Notes under the pieces: model-generated | What the model saw: the letters and a program-made list of their open reading frames with translations, nothing else | Databases searched by the model: none | Told to the model about the DNA's origin: nothing | Made by a program: the position numbers and the translations under genes | Assembly (NCBI GenBank): GCA_034687125.1 | Contig: JAQGBZ010000038.1 | Coordinates: forward strand, 1-64,000 | DNA length: 64,000 bases | Source: Neelides folsomi | Taxonomy: Eukaryota; Arthropoda; Collembola; Neelipleona; Neelidae | Reading direction: 5' to 3' | In this document: positions 265-59,022 of the stretch, piece after piece | Layout of the letters: each line of letters opens with the position of its first letter | Position numbering within the stretch: position 1 is the first letter of the stretch

Positions 265-3200
265 AATTCACTGGATGTTGGAAACAATTGCGCTGCTGCA
301 CAAAGCCCAGATTCAACAAGAACATTAAGCAGCATGGCTGGGTCTTACTTTGAGCAAAATCTTCTCACGCTGGAATCTCCATCAAATCGTTACCATTTGG
401 CCATTACTGGAAGCGCCTTCTCTGCTGTGAAGGATTATTACCCGGAGCTTCTCCCACGTCTCCTCGTTCGGGGAACTGTATTTGCTAGAATGAGCCCAGA
501 TCAAAAGCAACAACTGGTGGAATTGCTTCAAGCTATTGGCTACTTTGTTGGTGCGTGGGCGTTTGAAATCTTTTTTAAACAAATACTTTCAATATAAGTT
601 CAAATTCAATCCGTTATTTTCTAATTCAGTAATTGACTTTAGTTAGGAATTAATCGGAAGTTCCAGGAAAAACATTCACCCAATTGAGTTCAATGACCAA
701 AGAGAAATTGGATTAGTACGGAGAAAATGAAAATAAAAAGGCGACAATTCTCGTATTTTATTGTGAGAAAACATGCAATTTGAGGTCAATTAATCGTAAT
801 AAAAAGGGCGTCTGAATATCTCAAAAAAATACTTTGTTCCAATCAAATGTTTCTACTAGATTGATCTTTGATGTCGAAATTCCTTCTTTGGACTTAAAGT
901 GGAGTCAAAAGTTTATCGATCAGCAATAAATCGTTAAGAAATGATTTCGGACTAAAGTGAGGATTCCTGTGCTTTGAAATAGGAAAAAATATCCAATTTC
1001 ATTAAGGAACCTTTTATTAGGGAAGCTCTGGACGAATGAATAAATATCCTTTCAAGAATGTTTTCCTAAAGAAAGTGAAGGGAAAAGGAATGTTTTTTCT
1101 TTCGCACTCGGGCCGGTGAAAGACTTTGAAAGCACATGGGGGAATTGAATCAATCGTTTGATTTACAAGGGAATTGCAAAGCCGTATGTTCCAATCTGCC
1201 CTAAGAATAATGTAAAAACATGGGAAGGATAGGAAGTTTCTCACGAGAAGGGAATTTGCCCAGAATACTAGAAAGAATGTTAAATTGGGAAGAAATTGAT
1301 TTGCCTTTGGATGGTCAATGTACTTCCTTAGAATTTAATAAGAAATTGAGATTGGATGAAAACTTCTTTTGATTCAATTTGAGTCTTCGATACTAAATAA
1401 GTTTTCTCTGTTCCTTAAATTACAAGCCTACTCCCGAAACCAACCTAGCCGTGCACTTCGGGACTTTAGCGTCATATCAAGATTTGAATGTCTCGTATTA
1501 TATGTTATTTACATGACATAGAAATTATCTTTTACTCCTTTTAAAAAAAATTATAGAGAAAATGTTCAAAACGGTATAAAGGGCAATATGAGAAATTCAA
1601 ATATTGATATGACGCTAAAGTTCCGAAGTGCACGGCTAGGTAGGTTTTGGGAGTATAGACATTTATACATTATGATAAAGTTTAATTTATTATGTTTCTT
1701 GTGATAGAAATATGAATAGCGTAGATATCTTAATCGTTAGAAAACCACGTCCCAATTTAATGCATTTATTATTCTAAAATTTAAATTATTGGGTTAATCT
1801 TCATATTATTTAACGGGTTTGGGAATTTTACGAGAGCACATTGAACTCAGAATTCAATTATTTTCCAATAAATGTCCAAAATGTATTTTATGACGAGGGA
1901 AAGAGATAAAAATGGATTGAAAGATGACGCTCTATTTTTAAAGGAATGATGGATGATAATGTAAAATTAACCGAAGGAATTGATTATTTTAGGAATGTGC
2001 GGCGACGGAGCTAACGACTGTGGTGCTTTGAAGGCAGCTCATGCTGGCATTTCCCTTTCCGAAGCGGAATCTTCCGTCGCTTCTCCCTTCACGTCCAAAG
2101 AACCCAACATTACCTGTGTTCCGAATTTGATCCGAGAAGGCCGTGCAGCTCTTGTCACTTCCTTTGGGATCTTTAAGTATATGGCAGTCTATTCACTCAC
2201 TCAATTCGTCTCTGTCATCATTCTATACACCATCGATTCAAATTTGGCGGATAAACAGTTCCTATACATTGACTTGTTCCTCATCTCCATTTTCGCCGTT
2301 GCATTTGGGCGGACAGAGCCATTTCCTGGCCAACTTGTCAAGCAGTCGCCGTCAGCGAGTCTCGTTTCGGCATCTCCCATCGTATCAATTGTTTGTCATA
2401 TATTGTAAGTCTCAAATTCAAATATTCATATTATACCATAATATACCACAATATTTTTTATATAGAGCATACCTTTGAATTTGTATTTGTATAATTATTT
2501 CTTAATATTCTATCAGTATTTTAGTTAATACCTGTATTCTATTAATATTACTAATAATGATATTTTGTATCCATCCAATTAAGTGCACAAATAACTATAC
2601 TAATGATTTATGAGGTCAGAGGAGCCATTAATCAATAACAATACACTATAAGAATGTATTTATGTAGGTTGAGTGAGTCTAAACTAATACGTAGTTTCTT
2701 AAATTGCTTTTTGTTTCTTTCAGATCAATAATTGGAATCCAGGTTCTTGCATTTATCTACGTTCAGAAGCAATCGTGGTTTACACCGTACGTGAAGAAAG
2801 ATAACGATTTTGGGTGTTATGAAAACTACGCCGTGTTTGCGGTCTCCACCTTTCAGTATATTATCATGGCGATCGTATTTTCAAGAGGGAAACCCTATAG
2901 GAAGTCAATTGTGACCAATCCCGGGTTATTGGGCTCGCTCCTATTCATGACCTCTTTCACACTCTATTTGATTTTTTACCCATGCTCCTGGCTTGTGAGA
3001 ACTTTTGAACTTGTTCTCCCTCCCGACTTGACCTTCAGATGCTTCATTATCGGATTCGCCCTCGCTAATCTCGTCCTCGCCATTCTCATCGAATATGGCA
3101 TTGTCAACTTCATTGTGGGCCAATGGCTCAACGGGGTAATGGCGGCGAGAGGGAAGAAATCCAAAATTGAGTACCAACGGATTGAAGCGGAGTTGGCCCA

Positions 3201-3480
3201 AAGAACGGATTGGCCACCTCAGTTGGAACCTCCCACGCTCTCCTGCCAATGCGACAATATATCAGAGTGTGGGAAAGGACCTGGCAAAGGCCCTATTACT
3301 AATACTCAAAATCAGTCACAATCGAAAACGACCCTTTCTTGCCTACAGGAAACTCCAGAGAATAATAAGAACAACAATAGAAGCATTCCGAATTCAGAAG
3401 ATGATTTTCAAATGCAAATGCTGAGTCCAAACGTGGCTACAAATCCTCAGAGGCAGAATAGTCGAATCAATGAATCGTGA
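265..3480 (+). CDS. ATP13A: ATP13A-type P5B ATPase, C-terminal part (3 exons, 5' end outside window)
   Basis: P5B-type P-ATPases move polyamines or cations across lysosomal and endosomal membranes. Exons are 265-550, 1993-2404 and 2724-3480; all junctions are GT-AG and keep frame, giving the last 484 residues. Exon 1 holds the end of the P domain with the family string [13 protein letters not shown]. The hinge motif [16 protein letters not shown] follows directly at the start of exon 2, the intron splitting a Gly codon just before it. Exons 2 and 3 then give the hydrophobic segments of the C-terminal membrane domain, and the stretch WPPQLEPP resembles the end of the conserved family region. 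About 90 polar Asn/Gln/Ser-rich residues extend past that point. The phosphorylated DKTGT motif is not here, so most of the protein lies to the left. An AATAAA is at 3713-3718. The family is secure; the exact paralogue (ATP13A2/3/4) is not. Confidence 0.92.
1430..1654. repeat. Foldback element with 60-bp arms in ATP13A intron
   Basis: Positions 1430-1489 and 1595-1654 are near-perfect reverse complements (about 56 of 60 bases by eye) around a spacer of about 105 bp. There is no ORF inside. It looks like a small MITE or foldback repeat sitting within the intron 551-1992. No target-site duplication could be assigned. Confidence 0.7.
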
Positions 3481-4600
3481 CTATTGCTTTCTTCTTCCAT
3501 TTTCACTCGCTTATATATTATTTTATTTCTTACGGATTCTCAAATGTTTAAACAGGTTTTTAAATATGAAAATGAAACATTTTAAATTATTTTAATCGTT
3601 GGTACTAGTACTCACATAAATGTGGATATAAGTTTTAATTAAGAAACAAGAAAGCAAAACAATATATTATATTACATAAATATAGTTATAATTTATAATA
3701 TAAATAAATTAAAAATACCTAACATATACAGATACATTATTATATGAAAATACGATATTTAGTAATATGTAGATATGATGAAATATATGATGCAGAAATA
3801 CTATTTAAAAATTATATTATTATATAATACTTCCTGAATATGGTTAATAATAGAGAAATATAGATTATGTATTTCATTGTCACTATAATATTGTAAGAAT
3901 CAGTAAATATCTAGTAAAATTTTATGTGTATGTAAATCATTTTAAATATTTATATTACCTAAACTGATAAGTGCAAATATATTATATTTCTTTAAGAACT
4001 ATAACTTAAGGCTGAAGATAATATCTTAAACTTAAATATTATGTGAGTATGTCTAGATAATTTAATCCGTGCACTAATTAAGTTTATCATAACCTTACTT
4101 AATATTATATGCTTTTGCAGGTCAACTCCCAAGGGAATTAGACATGTCAACCCCCATAATTTTACCAGTTGTACTATTTTGTATACATAGTATGCATTTG
4201 CAACCTTATGTACTATACAAGTACTTTAATTCATGTCATTACTCTTTAAACATTATCAACCTTTTCCTATTTAAAGTTAGTGTTAGATAAAATTTGCTAA
4301 AATACCTTTTTTATAATTTCGATAATGCCTTTAACATCGAAATTTGAAATTCGTTACGTTTTACTTAAGCAAAATGTCGGTTAAAGTAAATTACATATAT
4401 AAAATGAACCATGTCGAAATATTTTAATTTGGAAGAATACACGCTTCAAATTCAAATAAAATACACATTAATTAAAAAATGATGATCTATGTATATATTT
4501 ATATAATTTAATTTTTGTGTAATACAGTGATATGAACCACTGGTTTCAAGGCGCAGACACAGGTTGTCTATTGCCCAACCCACGAAAACGATAAGCATAA
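3481..4600. other. AT-rich 3' flank, no gene seen
   Basis: This is the region after the ATP13A stop codon. It is extremely AT-rich, stops are dense in all frames, and neither cysteine-rich exons nor splice-bounded ORFs are visible on either strand. It presumably carries the ATP13A 3' UTR and then spacer DNA. Confidence 0.6.
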
Positions 4601-5151
4601 TAGACAGTTTGAAATCCTGACGTAGCGTAAACGTAGACGTAGCGTAAGAGAATTCTTAAGTTAGCTCCGCCCCTTTTGCCCCAAACCTTACGCTACGTCT
4701 GCCAAACTGGCGTAAGAAACCGATTCTTACGTCAATCCTTTACGTCGGACGTAGCGTGTAAAAACTGCGAGAATAAACGATAAATGAAGGGAAGATGTCT
4801 TCCCTTCCCATCTTCCCTTTATTCTAGAAAGTGCTTATTTTAATTAATTCGCAAAGCCGATTTGGATAGCAGAACCGTCTTAACAATATACACAGGCCTT
4901 CTATTACTAAAAATATATTTTATTTTTCATTATTATGTAAAGGAAAAAGATAACTTTTTTAGTTGACAAAAGTAAAAATGCTTCGATTTACAATGATTGA
5001 AACTTTGAAATGGTGTGGTTTAAATCATGCGAACTCGTAAATCACTACACTACGCTATGTCATTTTTTCAAACGATCAAACATAGACGTAGTGTTATGAT
5101 TTCCTTACACTACGCAGGCCGTTACGCTACGTCAGGATTTCAAACTGTCTA
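4601..5151. mobile_element. MITE with 30-bp terminal inverted repeats and repeated GACGTAGCGTAA motif
   Basis: The 30 bases at 4601-4630, starting TAGACAGTTTGAAATCC, are matched in reverse complement at 5122-5151. Inside are many copies of the motif GACGTAGCGTAA, or its complement TTACGCTACGTC, exact and degenerate. There is also an internal hairpin around 4786-4822. No transposase ORF is present, so it is non-autonomous. It is much richer in GC than the DNA on either side. No clean target-site duplication could be read. Confidence 0.8.
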
Positions 5152-5950
5152 ATACCTCTATGTATACATAATTAATTAATGAGCATTTACAAGCGTAACT
5201 ACTTGAATGTAAAAATTTTAATAAATGTATCAATTTTTATGAAAATTGTTCTAATTAACACAATAATCATTACCATTACATAAATGATATTTGAAACAAA
5301 GAGTGAACTTAAAGGTAAGAGAAATTAAACATTTTAACGCTGTTTTAATATGAATGAAATCTTAGAACTAAAACTCCAGCGAGAACTGCTGAAAATTCCA
5401 GTTACAGGACTTTCTATATGACTTGAAGAATCCATGATACATAACATAATAAATAGAATATGCACTGTCAAATCATAATTAATCAAATAATGAAAAGATT
5501 ATAAAATTTATTGTAAAATCCAATTATTTTTTTGATTTTATATTCTTTATGATATTGAAAGCATCTGTATTGGATAAATCATATTTCATATTTATATATG
5601 GTATATAAGAATTAGTATAACATAATAAATATTTAACATTACAATGTTTACAATATTTTATAGCCACAATATTTTTGTATTTATTATTGTTTTTTTATTA
5701 AAAATGACATTTTAATTTTTACTAACAAAATGCTTTTCGAATAATTTTTGATAAATGAAACAAATTATAACGTAAACAATTTTACTAATTCATACTTAAA
5801 TATTAATTATTTACTACACACTACAATATATACTATGTTTATGTATATAATGTCTTTGTTATTAAAAAAAAGTATTTACTCATACTGATATTGGTAATTT
5901 TATACATTAGAACAATACCTCCAGGAAATTGTTATAAATAAGAAGCAACA
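5152..5950. other. Spacer between convergent genes, no exon seen
   Basis: This AT-rich stretch lies between the MITE and the stop codon of the TGF-beta-like gene. It was examined on the minus strand for a cysteine-knot exon and none is visible. A minus-strand AATAAA (TTTATT on the plus strand) near 5683 could serve as a polyadenylation signal for the minus-strand gene. Confidence 0.5.
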
Positions 5951-8900
5951 CTATCTTTTCCGATCACTCGAAGGAGATCTCGAAGGAATAGGAGGAGTAA
6001 TGTAAATTTTTTGAATTATCGTGTCATGTTCTGACCCTTCTTCCGAAAACCCGTCATTCTCACTCGACTTTTGTTCCTCTCCAATTGTAAGCTCGGGATT
6101 TACCTTTTTACGTCTTTCCGGAGATCCTGCTAATAAAATCTGCCTAAGAGGATGGTTCTCGTCCAACACGTATTTCTTTTCTTCTTCTCTCTCCAATCTG
6201 GCTTCAAATCCAGAAAGTGCTTCCATGTTCCCACCATGTGAATTTCTCTTTCTGGTCTGCCTTTGGTTTTTCTTTTGTCCTTTGTTTGCTCCGTGATTGT
6301 GACGATGACGGTGATGGGACGATTGAGAATGAGTCAAAGGAGTTAAAATGATAGGACCAAAACCATCATTTTGCATTGATGATGATTCAGAGTTTGAGCT
6401 TGAGTTCGTCAGATCAGTTTCATTTTTCGAAATGTGATTTCTAGTTATGACAGATGTGGGAAGGGAAATTGGAAAAAATGGAGTTCCTTTTGGTTCTCTT
6501 GAAGGAATTGATAAAGTGCAGACGTCAAGAACCGGAAGAAGAAGATTGTTAGAAGGAATTGGAATTTTCTCTGGATCGGAAATTGTTGTTTCTGTAATAA
6601 AATGATTCATAGAATATTTTAATAACTTCATAATATATAATTGATGATAACAATTTTGATGAATTTTGATTATTTTACTTACTTTCCGAAGATGTACAAG
6701 GGTTGGCCAAATATTTGTTAGCATCAAGTAAATCATTATCTTCGTTGTCAACTTCAATGACAAGACCATAATTGATTCCCTTTTCGAGCCAGGCTTTTAA
6801 AGCTTTTTGAATGTCAAACTCAATCCATTTAGATTCTTTAACAGAAACCATTTTTGTATCCAATAATTTTCTTTTGACTGAAATTACATTTTTTTAAATG
6901 AGTAAGTGAAAGTGATTTATAACATTAAATTGTGGGGGAAAAGGTAAATTATCTTATGAACTCACTATGATGTTTGGCGAGAGGTTGAGTATACCAATAA
7001 AGGGAAATCCTTATATTTTCCTCTTGTTCAGTGAACATTTCTTCTAATGAAATTGTGGGTCGTGGTAAATTATCAATTGTCATTGAGTCATTGCAAGGTT
7101 CTGATGATTCGGGTCTTGGTGCTTTAATTAATTCTTTATCTCCCATTAAATCCTATGAAAAGTATCAAAATGGAATTTAATAATAATTGTATATAACAAG
7201 TTTACAAGTTTCATAATAGTACTACCATATAATGTATAGTACAATATGTATATTGATATTGGTAGTGAAAATAAACTAGTGATGAATTAATAATGTGTAC
7301 ATTATATTCTATTGTATATGATGCAAAAAATATTACCGAATTTTGGCCGAATTTAAAGATTTTAATTTTTGATGATAAAATGCTAAAGTTGAGTGATCTT
7401 TTTGCTTTCCTTGTTTGTCTTGGGCTGACAGTAGAAGAAGTATCAACACTTGGTTTCAAAGTCGTTTCATTTTGATTCGTCATGATTTTCTCACTATCCC
7501 CGATTGGATTTTGAGTCAAAGATTCCATAGCACTCACATTGAAATAGACATGAAAGTATTCGGATGAATTCCAAACTTCCTCATCAACGTTTTGTGGTGA
7601 TGTGCCTTTAATTATTCCAGTTTGAACATTTAATTTGGAATTTGATTAGTAAAATAATAATTATGGATTTTGTAGGCTTACAGGCTGCATTAAATGTTTG
7701 GATTTGTCCTGAAAATGGTCGTGGTTCTCTTCCATATTTTCCTAATCCATCAAGTAATTCTTTCTTTTTTCCTTGTTGAATCTGATAAAATTAACATAAT
7801 TGTACAATTTTGCAAACTAGGGAATTAAATTGGATGATTTTTATATTGAGAAAGTATTCATTTTTACTGGGGTAATTGACGGAGGACTTTGGTTGTGTCC
7901 GACAAAGTTAAGGATCCGATTTTTTATTTCCTCCAAACGCTGAGCTTTGATCCTGTGATAAAAACCAACTTTTATTAAACATTTCTAGTACGTAACTTTT
8001 AATTTCAATTTATGCTTCAAAGGTTATTACAAAAAGTTATAATTTGCAAAGTCATTCTCAGTGCATTAAACATTAAAACGTTTCAACTTTCAACTTTAAT
8101 GAAAGTATTAAACTGTTCAAGAGTGAAAGTGCCGTTAATTTCGCCCATCTGACTGAATAAAATACTACAAAGAGCTTTTATCATTTTAACAACCTTTATG
8201 TCAAATCCACGTTCATTGTGTATTGCATTTCATTTCAATATTAGTTTATTATTCATAAATTACTCAAATTAAGTATGTATTAATTTGAGATTAACAGCAT
8301 TACATTTTGTTATTGTTAAAAAATATTGCATATCAATATTAATTAAACTTCGAAGATATTTCAAAGTTATATGCAGTAGAGTCGTAGAGCACTTCAGAGT
8401 AGTGAAAGTATGTAGCTTCTTATATAAATAATATCGGCAGTTTATTAAAATGCAAGTTATGAATAATTAGTAATGTCATAAATGGACTTCATGCTTTATT
8501 TTAAGTTTTCAATGAATTGGTTTCGTCATTCGAAAAATTTTGTTTCGGTGTAATATTTATTAAAATAGCGTCACAATTGAATGAATATTAATACTAGTTA
8601 TCTATTTGGCCAAAAAACTTAACACTTATCTAATGATATTTCCCATTGCTCATTACATTATTCTTTATTGTTTTCACTTGTAAATAAAGTAACTTTATAT
8701 ACCAGAAAAACATACAAGGAATGTACAAGGAAACCTTCATGTAGAGTAAAGATTTGCATGCATAGATGCGATTTTCTATCTAATCTATCTAATCTACTGA
8801 AATGTATGTGAATACCTAGTATCTTATATCAAGTTATAGAGCATTAGAAACTAAATGCAAAAATCGAATAAAATTCCTTATAAAAACAATTATTCTCAAT

Positions 8901-11900
8901 GATTACATTGCAAACAATTAACATCATGCTTCAAATTCACGAAAGCTCCACGTTTTATTATAATGTATTAAATACCAAATGCACAAAAACTTATTTAATG
9001 TTACATAAATTGCATATTGGTAATTTAAAGCCTATAATTTGTATTTTTTCAAGTTATATTATTTTAAGAGTTGTTCAGATAGAGAACTTTGATTAGAATT
9101 AAAAAAACTATTCGACGCGGTGATTATTAATATGTCAATGAAATGAAAGCGATAATTATATATTTCTCGCTGGGCAATTAGATTAAAAAGAGAATCTCAA
9201 TGAGGAGGGTCTGGAATTATTAAGGGTCTTTCATAAAATGGAACATGGTCCACTTGGCATGTCTTGTAGACATTGGAACGTTTGTTCAAGAGCCAGACGA
9301 GAGGCGCACCCAATCCGCACCCTTTCTACGAGCAAGTTACAACTTCTTTTTTTGTTGTTCCTCTCGTTCTTTGACTGGGGTTCTTCAAGTCTCGCCAGTC
9401 AGAAAGAGTCATTTCTCCCTCCCAAGGCCCGAACTGTCAAACGGAACGTTTTATCTTTTATTTATATAGAGAGTATCCCCAATATTCCCTGAATGACTCA
9501 AGCTGAGAGAGAGAGGTAGAAAAAGGATCAACTAAATCCACCCCAAAACCTCAACTATTTATTCTTAGCACAATGAAGATAACTCTGGACAAATATTTAT
9601 TTGATTCCTCCTCCCAATTTCTCAACTGATTGGAAATAATCTAAAATATTTTATTTAATAATATAAAATGCTCCATTTAACAATATCTCTAATTGACTTT
9701 TAAATTACCTAATATTACATAAGCACTTTATAACTAAATTCATTCCATTTTCGTTTATTTAAATTCGATTATTTAAATCAAAATTAAACAAATGTAAGGA
9801 CTAATTAAAGATCTCTTTTATAAAAGAGCAATTAACCTTAGGGAGTTATACGGAGTTATACGGAGGTACACACCTTTCTGTTCCCCCATTATGATTGGTT
9901 TGTATGAAATTCCATGAACGTGGCATTCCCTGTGCACCCTTTACGCGGAAAGCTCATTGAGAATTCTGGTCGAAAGGTTTGAAGGAAGGTGGTCGGCTCA
10001 TTTCAAGGATCCAATTCCCTTTTGGAGAGCGGGAAATGTAGAGTGGTCACATTGTGTTGGCGATTGAGCGTTCCAGGCGGTCCATGTCCAGTCCAACAAC
10101 ATTTGTTCGTAGCCAATGGAAACTTTGTTTGCCCGTCTTCCGATGAGGGCAGGATCTCCATTAAAATACCTAGAAGGTTGAGATCTCTGTCTCCTCCTCC
10201 TTTGGGTCTCTCAATAAAGGGAAACTCCATGTTCTGGAATGCCATTCATTTTCTTTTTACTCATGTGAGCCAGACATAAATCGTAGGTTAAGAGCGTAGG
10301 GAGATCCAGGCCGTGGAAAGACATACCTTAAAATGTATTTGATATGTAATGTATTTACATAGGGTTGAAGAGGGCCTGAGAAACTTTGTTTGGGTCTCGC
10401 CGTCTACCAACTCATTCTTGATGAGTGAGTCAATCCCCTGCATGTATTAATGTGTTCTGGGAGAGTAAATTTGGATGAGTGCGTGTAATGTAATTGGGTA
10501 CTTCGCGTTTCGTATGAGGTGATAAAGCAGTTTTACCAGTTGCTACTACGCTCTTACGAGACGAATTCGTGTAAAGGAATTTGTCTTTATTTTCTGTAAG
10601 CGCCTCGAGATGATTCCACTCTCATTAAGGGAGTCACCATTGCCCCAACGAACTTTAATTTGCATACTCTTTTTACATAAATAAAATTACCTAAACAATG
10701 ACCGCTATCAAGGCCGAATCATTTGTGGAACAAATACTCATACTTGCATAATTCATTATTAAATTGGTGGGTATTATAATCCTCCTATTCTTACAGAATG
10801 AAAATTAAGTTTTAATCATCCCTTTTGATTGAATTGGAATAATCTTGCATGTCTAATAGTGAAATATAAAATTAAAAACATAAAATCCAGAATAAAAAAG
10901 ATGCTGACGGATGGTGAGTGAGGTGAGCGAGTCTGAGAATAAAACTTGTATGTAACGAGATCAAGAGTCACAAGGTATGAGTACACTTTTATTATAAATT
11001 GTACTGATATACTGACATTGAGTATAAATATTTAAGAATATTTTATATACTCAAACCCAACTAACTTCTCAAATTTTAGTATATTACGCATGTAAATATA
11101 TTAGGTACCTTAAGCATTTACCTAGTTGTATCGTATGATTTGTGTGATTTTAATTTCAATATATAGTATTAGAAGGAGCACTATTTTACCTAAATAGATA
11201 ATATTGTTTTCACCTATGAATTTACATATACAGATAGGTACATATTTTATATGGTTCATTCATAAGATTTAAATGGAATGAAATTAAATAACGATTCATT
11301 TTTTTACATAAATATAATAAATTATGCCCTGTTTAATGTGGTCCTAAAATAAATAAAATATAGAATTAGAAAACACAAATCTTAATTCATCGCAAATATG
11401 ACACTTAACATATGTAATATAAAGCATACAAGACATTTAAAGTTTAACATTTAAATTAAATACAACATGCTATGTATAAGATACTTTTTAAGAACACATG
11501 TTTCTCTATATCGCCATTTAATAAAAAGGTGACATCATTAAATGTTTGGGGTTATCAAAATATTCTGTATTTTGCCCGCGCTGAGTCTGCTAAGTGAAAT
11601 GTTCAAGAACTTCATTCATTTAAAACCTATCCTTTTAAGCAGGTTTAAATTCTTATTGAAAGTGTTATAAATGGGATAAGAAGTTATAAATTAAATATCA
11701 AATGAAATGAAACGAAGAGTGTATTATGTAGAGTATATTTCATACAAGTAGAGTAATATATGTAAACCGCGAAGGAACATTCATGTTTTCCGATAACTAA
11801 AAAGCTTCTTCTTTTTACGTAAGAGATACCATAATAAGTTAATTGACTTCTCATACTACACGAGGCAAAGACCTTAAATCACTTATGTTATCAAAAATAA

Positions 11901-14900
11901 AATATTGTATGTAAATATTTTTTAAATTGAACTTAGGTAAGCTATCTATTGATTTATTCGGATTATTCCTTGATATGATGCTTAACATTCCAAACTAAAG
12001 AGTCGAATCAAATTCATATTTTAAGTATCATGTGACCAACCCAATAAATAAATTATGAGTTTAATGTGTATTGAAAGCATCTAATCAAAATATTGGGCAA
12101 GATGAATTTAATTAAACTACCATATTTTAAGTGCTATTGCAATCAAAGAAAGACCAAGCCATATCTGATATAAGTCTCCTAATTTAAATCCCTTGTACGA
12201 TTTAAATACGTAAATACAATTACCTACAGGCTATATACTTTTAATTTAAATACACAGAACATGTTTATTTTAATACATCAATAGACTTCCACTTAATGCC
12301 ACACATTAGAAAATAGTGCATTAATGATGCAGAACGTAAAATAGAAAGGGAAAGAATACCATTGACTGACTTTAATGAATACACAGAGAATATTTAAATA
12401 TATATAAAATGTAATAAATACATATAAGTACCTATATGATATACTGAGGTCAACTTGTATGAACTTCCATAGTAGAATTGCGGGTCCAAGTGTAAACCAG
12501 ACAGTCAGACAAAGGAGTCAGACGAGACTCAAATGTCAGAACTCATTCAATTATCCACTTACATTCTAATTTGGTTCGTGGCGAAAGAGGAAATATTCAA
12601 GTGCCAAATCCCTCGTTGGTTTAACAAGAACAAATTCTTGTTTAAAATCTCATATTTACTATCTAAATGAAATTGAAAAGATTCATTAGTACAACAGGGA
12701 TTGATCAAAAAACTGGAACAGTTTTGGTCTAATGTTAAGGAATAATTTTACTATTGAAAGCTTGCTAAGTATCTTAAATATGACAATGTTAAATATTTAA
12801 ATGTCTGTCATAGCATGATAAGAATTCTATAGTCCTATAAGAATTCGGCTCAATAGTCAAAATCAGACATTATCGCCTCTATGATATATGATATAAACCT
12901 TAACGAATTTCAAATATGCCAAGAATATAAAAATAACATTGAATTAATTATCACTTTTATATTAGAGATATAAATATGTCAATTTCGGAATCTCCGTCTA
13001 AAAAGTCATGCAAGAAATATTCGAGTCAAGGTTTACCGGTCGACCTCAAATCATTTAATAATTTGCTCCAGTCACTACTTAAGCAAATCATTCGGAATTT
13101 CTCTTATAAACTTCCTCTATTTAAAAGCCCATAAAAACATTGGAGGCCTCAAAATGGCAAGTTCCACTTTCATTTCTCTCCTCATCAATAAAAATTGATC
13201 AAAATTCACATTAAACACACTTCCAAGCAATAAAGATAAAAAGAACACTCGATTTCTTCACTCTAACCTCCCAACAATAAAAATATGATTATTGAACACT
13301 TATCGTAAAGTATGTATTTATGCCCGGTGTTCGAAATATACCCGGGTTCGAAATATACCCGGGAGTAGAAGCTGAGACTTTAAAATATGCCCGGGGTCTA
13401 AACGAGAATCCTTAGTTTTCAAACCTTAGCATACTAAATACCTATTATTAATCGTTTGATGTCTTTAAAATAGTTAATTTATTGATAAAATAAAACCACG
13501 AAGACAATTTTCAATTGACTTCAAACTAAAAGTGTTAAATTATGCTGATAATATAAGATTTTCTTGCCTTTATTTAAACAACTTACTAAATATACCCGGT
13601 ATCGATTTATACCCGGGGGGTCAAGGGAGGGAAGTTAAAAGATGCCCCGGGGTATAAATACATACTTTACGGTATGTGTGATAACTATAATTCTAAACTC
13701 TCCCATCTGGCTATTAAAAAAGCTAGAAAAAATCGAGCTCAAAATAAATTAAACTCCACCAAGTTAAATCTTGTTAATTAAGAATTTGTTAAGTATGTTA
13801 AATAAAAGTCTAATAGTTAATTCCAATGCATGTTTCAATAAATAAAGCATATTGGTTTCAATTCTAATATTATGAAATGCCGATATACTTATTAATGTAC
13901 TATATGGTAGATATTTATAATGAACTATGTAATACATGCACATTTACAAATCATGTTAGCACATCGTTTTCATACAAAAAATAAATGTAAAAGTAAAGAA
14001 AAAGCCAAAAGGGAAAGTGATAAAGGTGAAAAATTGAAAGAGCAAAAGCCCAAAAGCACCCACCCTTACCTCTTATATTGCACCGGATCCATGAGGCATA
14101 AAAAGGGCGGCTGTAAGTTGCAACTCTCATTTTCTCCTTGAGTCTTGAGAGCTGAGCTGTTACCGAAACCGCTACTGTGTTTTGGATTACAACATCTTGT
14201 ATATTTACACATTTATTAATGCAGATTAAGTTTTACATTACGAAGCTCTGTCCAATATCTCCCCAGATTTGCATTATGACTCCCTACCAGAAGTATGTAA
14301 ACAAAAGAATCAAATCCAACAAGTAAATAAAAGAATTAAGAGGAAATCTTATGAGTTCTTTTATCTCTTTTGCTGTTTCACTCATCCTACCAGTAAAATC
14401 CATTAAAATATTTTGACCTTACAACTAATTTATTCTAATATCTTTTAAACGAAAATATTAAATTTTTATTTAAATTAAACAATGAACCTGCAGTAATATG
14501 AATCAATGGATTATTTTATATATACTTCAATGATTTAACAACAATGATTTTAAATATTTAACCAAAAAATGTTTATAAAATACCTCAAATTTCCTAATAT
14601 GCCAATATACAATGAAGTTAATCTAAACAAATCTAGATTATGAAAAATTGGAATTTAAGTTAAGGAACAAACCTGTTTCGAATTGCTATGTTTAACGCTT
14701 GCTCTTCTGAAGTTGAAGCTGAAGACCCGAGAAAGAGCTTCGTTGAACTTCCTATCAATCATGAAAAGACAAGATGAGAAATATTCCCAAGTTTTTCAAA
14801 AAATAAAAAAATCCAATTTTGAATCTTACCTTCAGTTGTGGTTTTTTCTTCAATGTCCGTTTCAAAAGTTGAGGATGGCTTGGAAGGATTGGCAATGGAT

Positions 14901-14977
14901 GGAATTGGAGAACCTTCAATCTCCTTATAAAATGTAACGAGTATTAAGGCAAATGTGAAAAATATTAATTTGCCCAT
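5951..14977 (-). CDS. Secreted TGF-beta-superfamily prodomain protein lacking a cystine-knot ligand domain
   Basis: Eight minus-strand exons: 14977-14830, 14751-14673, 7952-7868, 7781-7682, 7605-7337, 7152-6966, 6877-6683 and 6591-5951. Lengths sum to 568 codons and every phase is consistent. Residues 1-24 form a signal peptide (MGKLIFFTFALILVTF...). Features typical of the TGF-beta prodomain follow: an amphipathic start helix IKAQRLEEIKNRIL near residue 76, YFHVYFNVS near 154-162, the strand IRISLYWY, and WIEFDIQKALKAWL near 307-320, followed by YGLVIEVDNEDNDLLD. A furin-like QTRKR ends at residue 470. After it, where a ligand with about seven cysteines is expected, come 97 charged residues with no cysteine, ending in SSDRKR just before the stop. 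The start is the second candidate codon, the first true ATG, because it begins the signal peptide. Exon 5 could alternatively end at a GTGAGT (7537), but reading on keeps the family-like FNVS. The prodomain call is good; subfamily and function are unknown. Confidence 0.75.
7953..14672. other. 6.7-kb intron of the TGF-beta-like gene
   Basis: This is the interval between exons 2 and 3 of the minus-strand gene. It is mostly AT-rich with no supported exon. Two more GC-rich islands, about 9238-9490 and 9900-10620, hold ORFs of 74-96 codons on both strands, but none resembles a known protein or has convincing splice sites. They may be repeats or enhancers. A MITE lies at 13303-13672. Confidence 0.55.
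13303..13672. mobile_element. MITE with repeated ATACCCGG motif, flanked by TA
   Basis: The terminal inverted repeats are about 26 bp: TCGTAAAGTATGTATTTAT at 13303 and its complement ending at 13672, with one or two mismatches. Each end is bordered by TA, the usual target duplication of Tc1/mariner-like elements. Several copies of a motif close to ATACCCGGG lie near both ends; two of them form a direct tandem at about 13334-13363. There is no ORF. Confidence 0.8.
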
Positions 14978-54151: not shown

Positions 54152-56382
54152 TTAATTTTCAATTTGTTCAAGTTCAGCGACGTTTTCGGCATCAAGCTTT
54201 CTAATAGGCTTTCCAAAATGCATTCTGATTTCTTCCAAAATTTCATAACTCTTATGACCATCAATGAGATTAATGGCAATTCCAGATTTACCGAATCTTC
54301 CAGTTCTTCCAATTCGATGCAAATAAGTTTCACAATCTGGTTTATGATTCAAATCCAATGGAAGATCAAAGTTAATGACAAGGGTAACTTGCTCAACATC
54401 AATTCCTAAAATAAAATTATCATGATGATAAGTTATGCATATACAGACTTAATTTTATGATCTTTATATTCATGAATTACACTAGTCCAGAAGTCATCAT
54501 ATCTTAAATATTTATTTGTTTTTCATATTATAAATACGTATTATAATTTAAAATGCTCACCACGAGCCATAACATTCGTCGTAATGAGAACTTTCTCAAA
54601 CCCTTCACGAAAGCGGTTTAAAACTGCAATCCTCTGCTCAACATTCAATTCACCCGAGAGAAGTGCCACGGCATGTCCATCTTGGCTCAATCTTCCTGCC
54701 AACCATCCTGCTGTTTTTCTCGTCTGTTGAATAATAAAGATCATTAAATGACTTAAATAATTCTTATTTAACAGCTCCAATTAACAAAAACAATTAACTT
54801 TCTAATTAGATTGAATGAAAAATTGTTTAAATAAGCCAACCTGACAAAATATCATGGCTTGTCCAATTGTAATGACCCCGTAGATGTTAGCAATTGCACG
54901 ATACTTTTCATCTTTGTCCCTACATTCAATATAGAATTGCTTGATGTTGTCTAAGCTTTCTTCTTCTCTTTTCAACTTCATAACTGTAGCGTCAGTGACA
55001 ATTCGCTCGGCGAATTTCATAACTTCGGCTTCATAAGTTGCTGAGAAAAGCATCAATTGACAGCCTGATGGAAGTTTCCTGCATTGAGTAAAATAACCAA
55101 TTGGATTTTATAAAGTTAATAATTCTTATCATTCAGAATTAATTGGTCAATATTTACTTGTGGATTCGAAGACTGGCATCTTGATATCCTTGAGTGGCGA
55201 TCATAATATCGGCTTCATCCAAGACGAAAGCTTTGAGTTTAGATAAGTCAAAGAACTTATGACGGAATGCCCAATCCATTACTTTTCCAGGAGTTCCAAT
55301 TACAATGTGTTCCTTAATTTTGGTTCCAACTTCAATATCTATAAAATAAAAATTATTTATTTAAAAAACAAAATTCATCTATTATTTAATCATCGACTTT
55401 TTGAAGATGCAAGTGGTTTTAATGAAATGTTATACAAAAATAAAGTTTTGAAATTAAATTTAAATTACGTTCGGTTCCTCGAACAGCAAATATGACAGTG
55501 ATTTCAGGACAGTACTTTCCCATTTGCTTTATAACTTCACCGGTTTGTAAAGCGAGTTCATAAGTTGGAGAGAGACACAAAATTTGCGGATAACTGAGAT
55601 TTGGATCAACTCGACTTAACATAGCCAAAACAAAGGCGGCTGTTTTACCCGTTCCTGATTGAGATTGTGCAATCAAATTTTGAGGCCTGAAAGTAAACGA
55701 GAATAAATAATAAACACAATCCATATCCGGACCAATTTCAATTTATTCCATTTTAGAAAACTTACGGATTGCTTAATAATATTGGAAGTGCTGATTCTTG
55801 AATTTTAGAAGGAGTATTGAATCCCATTGAATAAATTCCTTTGAGTAACTCAGGTCGCCTGCGAAGGAGAATAAATCATGAATTGCATATTTACATAATA
55901 ATTAATAATGATAATTAATATATTTTACAGATTAAGTTCTTCAAAGGAAGAAGCTGAATAAAGAGGTGACAGCGGATCCTTTTGCTTAATGTCTAAATGT
56001 GCATTTGAATCGAGTAATCCTTTTCGGATGATTTTTTGAAGAAGAGATTTTTCTGCAAGTGAAATTTCGTCGACTGGTTCATTTGATTCTGTCGTTCCAT
56101 CTGAGCCAGATGACAAGGCTGGTGCAGCAGGAGGAGCCGGACGTTGAAAATCACCCTGTCCCATTTCGGTGGCATTCTTTTGAATCGTCATTGATCCAAC
56201 CTAGAATTGCCAAAACATAGTTATATTAATTTAAAAGTAAAATATAATTATAAGTTATATAATTATTAGACAATACTTATATAATTTAAGTTTGTAATAA
56301 TTTGATAATTTCTGACCTTAGCTGTTATCGAATTCTCTTCTTCGTTCGCTGCATCAAGCCAATTTGTAACAGCGCTCGCCAT
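54152..56382 (-). CDS. DDX19: DDX19/Dbp5 DEAD-box RNA helicase, complete
   Basis: DDX19/Dbp5 strips export factors from mRNA at the cytoplasmic face of the nuclear pore, activated by Gle1 and Nup214; it also acts in translation termination. Exons 56382-56317, 56200-55929, 55858-55766, 55686-55469, 55338-55158, 55078-54841, 54723-54561 and 54405-54152 join in phase to 495 codons, giving 494 residues against about 480 in vertebrates. Motifs in order: Q motif [12 protein letters not shown], Walker [11 protein letters not shown] (150-159), Ia as PTYELALQ, Ib TPGK (232-235), DEAD (257-260), SAT (289-291), [16 protein letters not shown] (about 403-413) and HRIGRTGR (440-447). The PTYELALQ variant and [16 protein letters not shown] are characteristic of this subfamily. 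The N-terminal 110 residues are polar and Pro/Ala-rich, as in DDX19. The start ATG gives [10 protein letters not shown]. The gene is divergent from spermidine synthase, 1.45 kb away. Confidence 0.96.

Positions 56383-57835: not shown

Positions 57836-59022
<1,187 letters not shown>

Follow-up and report, generated by a model that had tools for sequence, protein, structure and literature searches.

The window analysed here comprises bases 1-64000 of contig C38 (309,770 bp) in an assembly of Neelides folsomi that totals 75.1 Mb in 840 contigs, and it is free of any N. On the mitochondrial contig, ND2, COX1, COX2 and ATP6 follow one another in this order by eye, COX1 also being called by a family match; such an order fits an arthropod or close relative. 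The minus strand between 14977 and 5951 carries a gene whose protein product has the architecture of a TGF-beta-family prodomain. Eight exons join in phase to encode 567 residues, and the only stop codon of the joined coding sequence (1704 nt) is the one at its end. All seven introns have GT...AG borders; exon 3 ends at 7868, by way of a GTAAAA donor. Base composition separates the two classes of sequence: the G+C fraction ranges from 0.323 to 0.435 in exons versus 0.165 to 0.306 in introns. The spliced protein contains cysteines only at residues 138, 247, 350 and 379, and no CxxC motif. The exon structure read from the DNA favours a genuine gene, and the eight-exon, in-phase model of the initial annotation holds, coordinates included. 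The second intron (6.7 kb) also contains an open stretch at 13951-14232 on the minus strand, with splice-like borders by eye, and this may represent an additional or alternative exon.

Table 1. Positions of the exons and associated features of the prodomain gene in the window.
Feature	Position	Strand	Description
Exon 1	14977-14830	-	ATG at 14977; MGKLIFFTFALILVTFY...; donor GTAAGATT; hydrophobic, signal-peptide-like N-terminus, by eye
Exon 2	14751-14673	-	alpha1 region begins; in phase; acceptor ...GATAG, donor GTTTGTTC
Exon 3	7952-7868	-	alpha1 helix (straitjacket), RLEEIKNRILNFVG; latency lasso begins; in phase
Exon 4	7781-7682	-	lasso region
Exon 5	7605-7337	-	arm strands and internal basic site RQTRKAKR, residues 200-207
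Exon 6	7152-6966	-	arm domain; best PF00688 stretch (protein 269-337) begins here
Exon 7	6877-6683	-	arm core KWIEFDIQKALKAWLEKG..GLVIEV; PF00688 match at C38:6732-6872
Exon 8	6591-5951	-	LPVLDV as last arm strand; linker; cleavage-like RQTRKR just above 6244; tail without cysteine; stop
Cysteine-free tail, 97 residues	6244-5954	-	occupies the expected knot position; no Cys
Donor-like GTAAAT, in frame within exon 8	6103-6098	-	alternative splice candidate; exon end would be 6104
Poly(A)-signal-like AATAAA/ATTAAA cluster	5716-5680	-	motifs at 5716, 5699 (AATAAA) and 5685 (AATAAA); about 235-270 nt past the stop; DNA signal only

The gene downstream is convergent, as had been claimed, and encodes an ATP13A. 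An exon ORF of 145 aa on the plus strand (1971-2408) matches polyamine-transporting ATPase 13A2 with an E-value of 5.3e-44. By eye, the ORFs at 265-597 and 2695-3480 are further ATP13A exons, and the start of the contig falls inside this gene, about 6 kb downstream of the prodomain gene. Between the two genes, at 4598-5154, lies a mobile-element-like inverted-repeat element of 557 bp, with 56-nt inverted terminal arms that are 82% complementary. Partial relatives of the element occur on contigs C187, C47, C395, C37 and C1. Farther along the window are a Helicase C-terminal domain exon (54152-54448, minus strand) and a spermine/spermidine synthase exon (58072-58500, plus strand).

Prodomain homology

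Prodomains are known chiefly from ligand precursors, in which they fold the ligand, maintain its latency and place it in the matrix. The spliced protein matches the TGF-beta propeptide family (PF00688, TGFb_propeptide) in a Pfam profile search with 40.8 bits (cut-off 25.8 bits) and an E-value of 2.6e-10. This result bears out the prodomain that had been recognized from the letters of the DNA. One further family was listed, at chance level (E 0.91), and the search returned no ligand domain. Exon 7 alone is matched by the same propeptide family at the genomic level, with 25.9 bits against the cut-off of 25.8.

Six other genes of the assembly encode complete ligands. We take these paralogues to be Dawdle-, Myoglianin-, Dpp-, Gbb-, ADMP- and Activin-like, names that go by likeness to family sequences and are not database assignments. 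In an alignment with all six, whose segments were joined by eye, the Trp pair of the arm is invariant. Shuffle tests (twelve comparisons in all, with paralogue segments joined by eye) gave different best matches for two segments of the prodomain. For the alpha1-lasso segment (exons 2-5), the score against the Dawdle-like paralogue on contig C36 was reached by none of 400 shuffles, versus 54 to 341 of 400 for the other five paralogues. For the arm segment, no shuffle in 400 reached the score against the Myoglianin-, Dpp- or Gbb-like paralogue, of which the Myoglianin-like one scored best; the scores against the ADMP-like, Dawdle-like and Activin-like paralogues were reached by 2, 2 and 12 of 400 shuffles, respectively. 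To go by sequence likeness, the alpha1 helix and lasso are present together with an arm that has both the Trp pair and the last strand, the alpha1 likeness being drawn from one of the six paralogues.

Solved structures were reached with a profile of seven arms, which includes the protein of the prodomain gene itself as one row. This profile matches the proproteins of TGF-beta2 (E 1.4e-7), BMP10 (4.9e-6), TGF-beta3 (5.9e-5) and GDF8 (2.5e-4). Sequence searches of the PDB returned no solved prodomain among the four matches to the single protein or among the two matches to the alpha1 piece. A recent duplication of one of the six ligand genes is not supported: among the best candidates scored genome-wide, at E up to 10, the protein retrieves only its own eight exons.

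The tail and the search for a cystine knot

A furin-like site, RQTRKR, occupies residues 465-470 between the prodomain and the C-terminal part, and as a sequence it is where the initial annotation had placed it. The 97 residues that follow had been described as charged and without cysteine. Their number and the complete lack of cysteine stand, but the charge was overstated: 34 of the 97 are D, E, K or R. Residues counted as disorder-promoting make up 63% of the tail. The protein as a whole has two RQTR sites, one RRKK and an RKR at its C-terminus. Each of the six paralogues has the first cysteine of its knot region 3-36 residues after an RxxR site, versus none in 97 residues here. Pfam searches of the whole protein and of exon 8 gave no match for the tail.

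As far as its stop, the last exon stays open and has an exon-like composition. Its frame is open for 212 codons, which none of 20000 composition shuffles equalled. The 97 codons of the tail stayed open in 17 of 20000 such shuffles, and none of 20000 windows taken from presumed noncoding DNA nearby is open over 97 codons. At the stop the G+C fraction drops from 0.398 in exon 8 to 0.187 in the next 300 nt. Codon scores of exon 8 are no higher in the reading frame than in other frames and neither help nor hurt, so that the coding case for this exon rests on openness and composition. Within the tail, after RRKK, a donor-like AAAAG/GTAAAT lies in frame. The 153 nt past GTAAAT are open to the stop with a G+C fraction of 0.412, a richness equalled by 7.9% of noncoding 153-nt windows, and the searches revealed no knot exon farther downstream.

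The initial annotation stated that no knot exon lies before the convergent ATP13A gene, and neither motifs nor profiles revealed one. In all six frames of the first 16 kb, a search for motifs yielded a single CxGxC (plus strand, 10570) and a single CCxP (minus strand, 14194), both outside any knot-like context; WxxWI did not occur. Full-sensitivity knot profiles were run against 6691 open stretches of at least 12 residues from the window and the six ligand loci, shorter stretches being dropped. The best E-values in the window were 4 for the whole knot, 0.79 for its N-terminal half and 0.49 for its C-terminal half. The profiles were built from the genome's own six knots, so they recover those knots (best E 2.8e-46) by construction, which is no independent control, and a strongly diverged knot could escape them. 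Neither the motif scan of the first 16 kb nor the whole and half-knot profiles over the window thus found a knot concealed in a different frame or divided among small exons.

The C-terminal cystine-knot domain (PF00019) is absent from the spliced protein in the Pfam search. Across the whole assembly this family gives eight matches in six genes; with E-values up to 10 admitted there are nine, all within those genes. A protein search with a consensus knot returns these six genes again. Such genome-wide searches score just the top candidates from an initial pass; they are not exhaustive, so that a strongly diverged knot could escape them. No match to the family or the consensus protein falls on contig C38; the ligand-domain search of locus and assembly agrees with the absence first noted. 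Prodomain-type exons adjoin all six knot genes on the same strand (by eye, among ORFs of at least 55 aa), and the propeptide family itself also matches three of the six. Since each of the six knots has prodomain-type exons of its own, no spare knot among those found remains for the prodomain gene. On the same grounds, no knot was found orphaned on another contig. As to splicing into a knot elsewhere, which had been named as the finding that would overturn the annotation, the assembly searches, at the DNA level, turned up no knot without a gene of its own.

Readings of the locus

The reading preferred here is that the gene specifies a secreted TGF-beta-family prodomain without a knot, derived from a lost seventh ligand, which acts on other ligands as a decoy, latency factor or chaperone. 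Its probability is put somewhat below one half. A fuller version, held more tentatively, is that this stand-alone gene controls other ligands in trans through a diffusible latency or decoy factor and has a newly evolved tail that is released by furin. The mechanism we infer would run as follows. (i) A seventh ligand gene would have lost its cystine-knot exon, and would have gained or exposed the charged tail that lacks cysteine. (ii) The protein, if expressed, would be secreted and then cut at RQTRKR by a furin-like protease. (iii) The retained alpha1 helix, lasso and arm would bind a related growth factor, most likely one of the Activin/Myoglianin class. (iv) Binding would lead to antagonism, storage or chaperoning of the bound ligand. 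A regulatory function is proposed because there is a precedent: the myostatin splice variant (MSV) of sheep and cattle is reported to lack the ligand region and to bind and antagonize myostatin (PMC3846833). The putative role of the knotless prodomain as antagonist, latency factor or chaperone is drawn by analogy with MSV.

A candidate ancestor can be named by elimination. Eight ligands are reported for Nasonia: Dpp, Gbb1, Gbb2, ADMP, Maverick, Activin, Dawdle and Myoglianin (PMC4218986). By the names adopted above, all of these types seem to be present here except Maverick, with only one Gbb-like gene. Maverick may be the ancestor because it is the only type on the Nasonia list without a recognized knot in this genome. 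The label is weak on two counts, since the protein differs from Drosophila Maverick both in the CxxC of beta8, which it does not have, and in its full RQTRKR.

The main alternative is that a knot exon exists and is either unassembled or too diverged to be recognized. The locus would then be a normal ligand gene, the seventh of this animal and perhaps Maverick, with its knot exon absent from the assembly, located past the end of the contig or diverged beyond detection; splicing would proceed from GTAAAT, and the stop at 5951 would belong to an alternative isoform. We regard this as unlikely. The in-frame donor after RRKK is what such a gene would need, Maverick is the one type on the Nasonia list whose knot was not recognized under the names adopted here and is called highly diverged in the same source (PMC4218986), and the contig begins, by eye, within ATP13A some 6 kb downstream, with a terminal-inverted-repeat element in between. 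Yet the window contains no N, the other six knots are all assembled, and a knot beyond the contig end could be reached only by skipping the convergent ATP13A gene; moreover, the 153 nt past the donor remain open and exon-like in composition to the stop. Less probable again is a gene turned into the precursor of a novel secreted peptide, for which the prodomain would serve solely as a chaperone in folding and targeting, and the signal would be the 97-residue tail or a piece of it released by cutting at RQTRKR, at RRKK or at the terminal RKR. The several basic sites suit such processing, as does a tail that is open and exon-like in composition, and the new C-terminus of sheep MSV is reported to be active in itself (PMC3846833). 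Against it, the tail is rich in disorder-promoting residues and has no cysteine, neither the protein nor exon 8 gave it a Pfam match, and no second genomic copy was found among the best candidates.

Least probable of the readings considered is a relic, in which a ligand gene lost its knot through deletion or the insertion of an element and is now decaying without function. A diverged prodomain for which a whole-protein search finds no paralogue (among best candidates) would fit such a relic, and so would the mobile-element-like inverted repeat just downstream; loss of family members has a parallel in the pea aphid, which is reported to have lost BMP10, Maverick and Alp23 (PMC2826372). However, the eight exons, the seven introns and the open frame of 567 codons have all survived, where a long decay should have broken them, and the alpha1 and arm motifs persist. 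The intact gene argues against long decay; it does not argue against recent loss.

Comparison with known systems

MSV is the closest parallel found to a knotless prodomain. Like MSV, the gene described here specifies a TGF-beta-family propeptide that lacks the receptor-binding ligand part and ends in a unique C-terminus, which in MSV is 65 aa long (PMC3846833); here these features are read from the DNA. MSV is reported to be one of the isoforms of a gene that also encodes the whole ligand, and to arise through a cryptic intron that takes away the RSRR site as well (PMC3846833). The prodomain gene, by contrast, is a separate gene that keeps its furin-like site and in which no ligand-coding sequence was found. 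If the preferred reading is true, a prodomain-only gene would be a natural trans-acting regulator, the separate-gene version of the propeptide antagonism known from MSV. It would also show a route from a ligand gene to a regulator of its relatives, and it would directly raise the question of which of the six remaining ligands is bound. Among the literature matches listed, none describes a separate prodomain-only TGF-beta gene in its title or the start of its abstract; this is weak evidence, most subscription literature being outside the scope.

Resemblances to complete ligands are divided among several of them. Maverick of Drosophila, an insect ligand that is GDF15-like and has a knot, is reported to have a beta8 with a CxxC pair and, at the place of cleavage, just one R (PMC7017013). 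The prodomain gene differs in having no CxxC and a full RQTRKR. Its alpha1-lasso region resembles prodomains of the Dawdle/Activin type, with the best score against the Dawdle-like paralogue on C36, but that paralogue has both CxxC and knot. The arm resembles the prodomains of Myoglianin and GDF8-GDF11 and scores best against the Myoglianin-like paralogue (C319:62 kb), from which the beta8 CxxC is likewise absent; unlike the prodomain gene, this paralogue carries on past its RxxR and within a few residues enters a cystine knot. On contig C319 the Myoglianin-like (62.8-63.1 kb, plus strand) and ADMP-like (66.9-68.4 kb, minus strand) ligand genes are convergent and about 4 kb apart. Near the ADMP-like gene, at about 70.2-70.8 kb on the minus strand, lies a cysteine-rich ORF that by eye has the look of a CTCK-like cystine knot.
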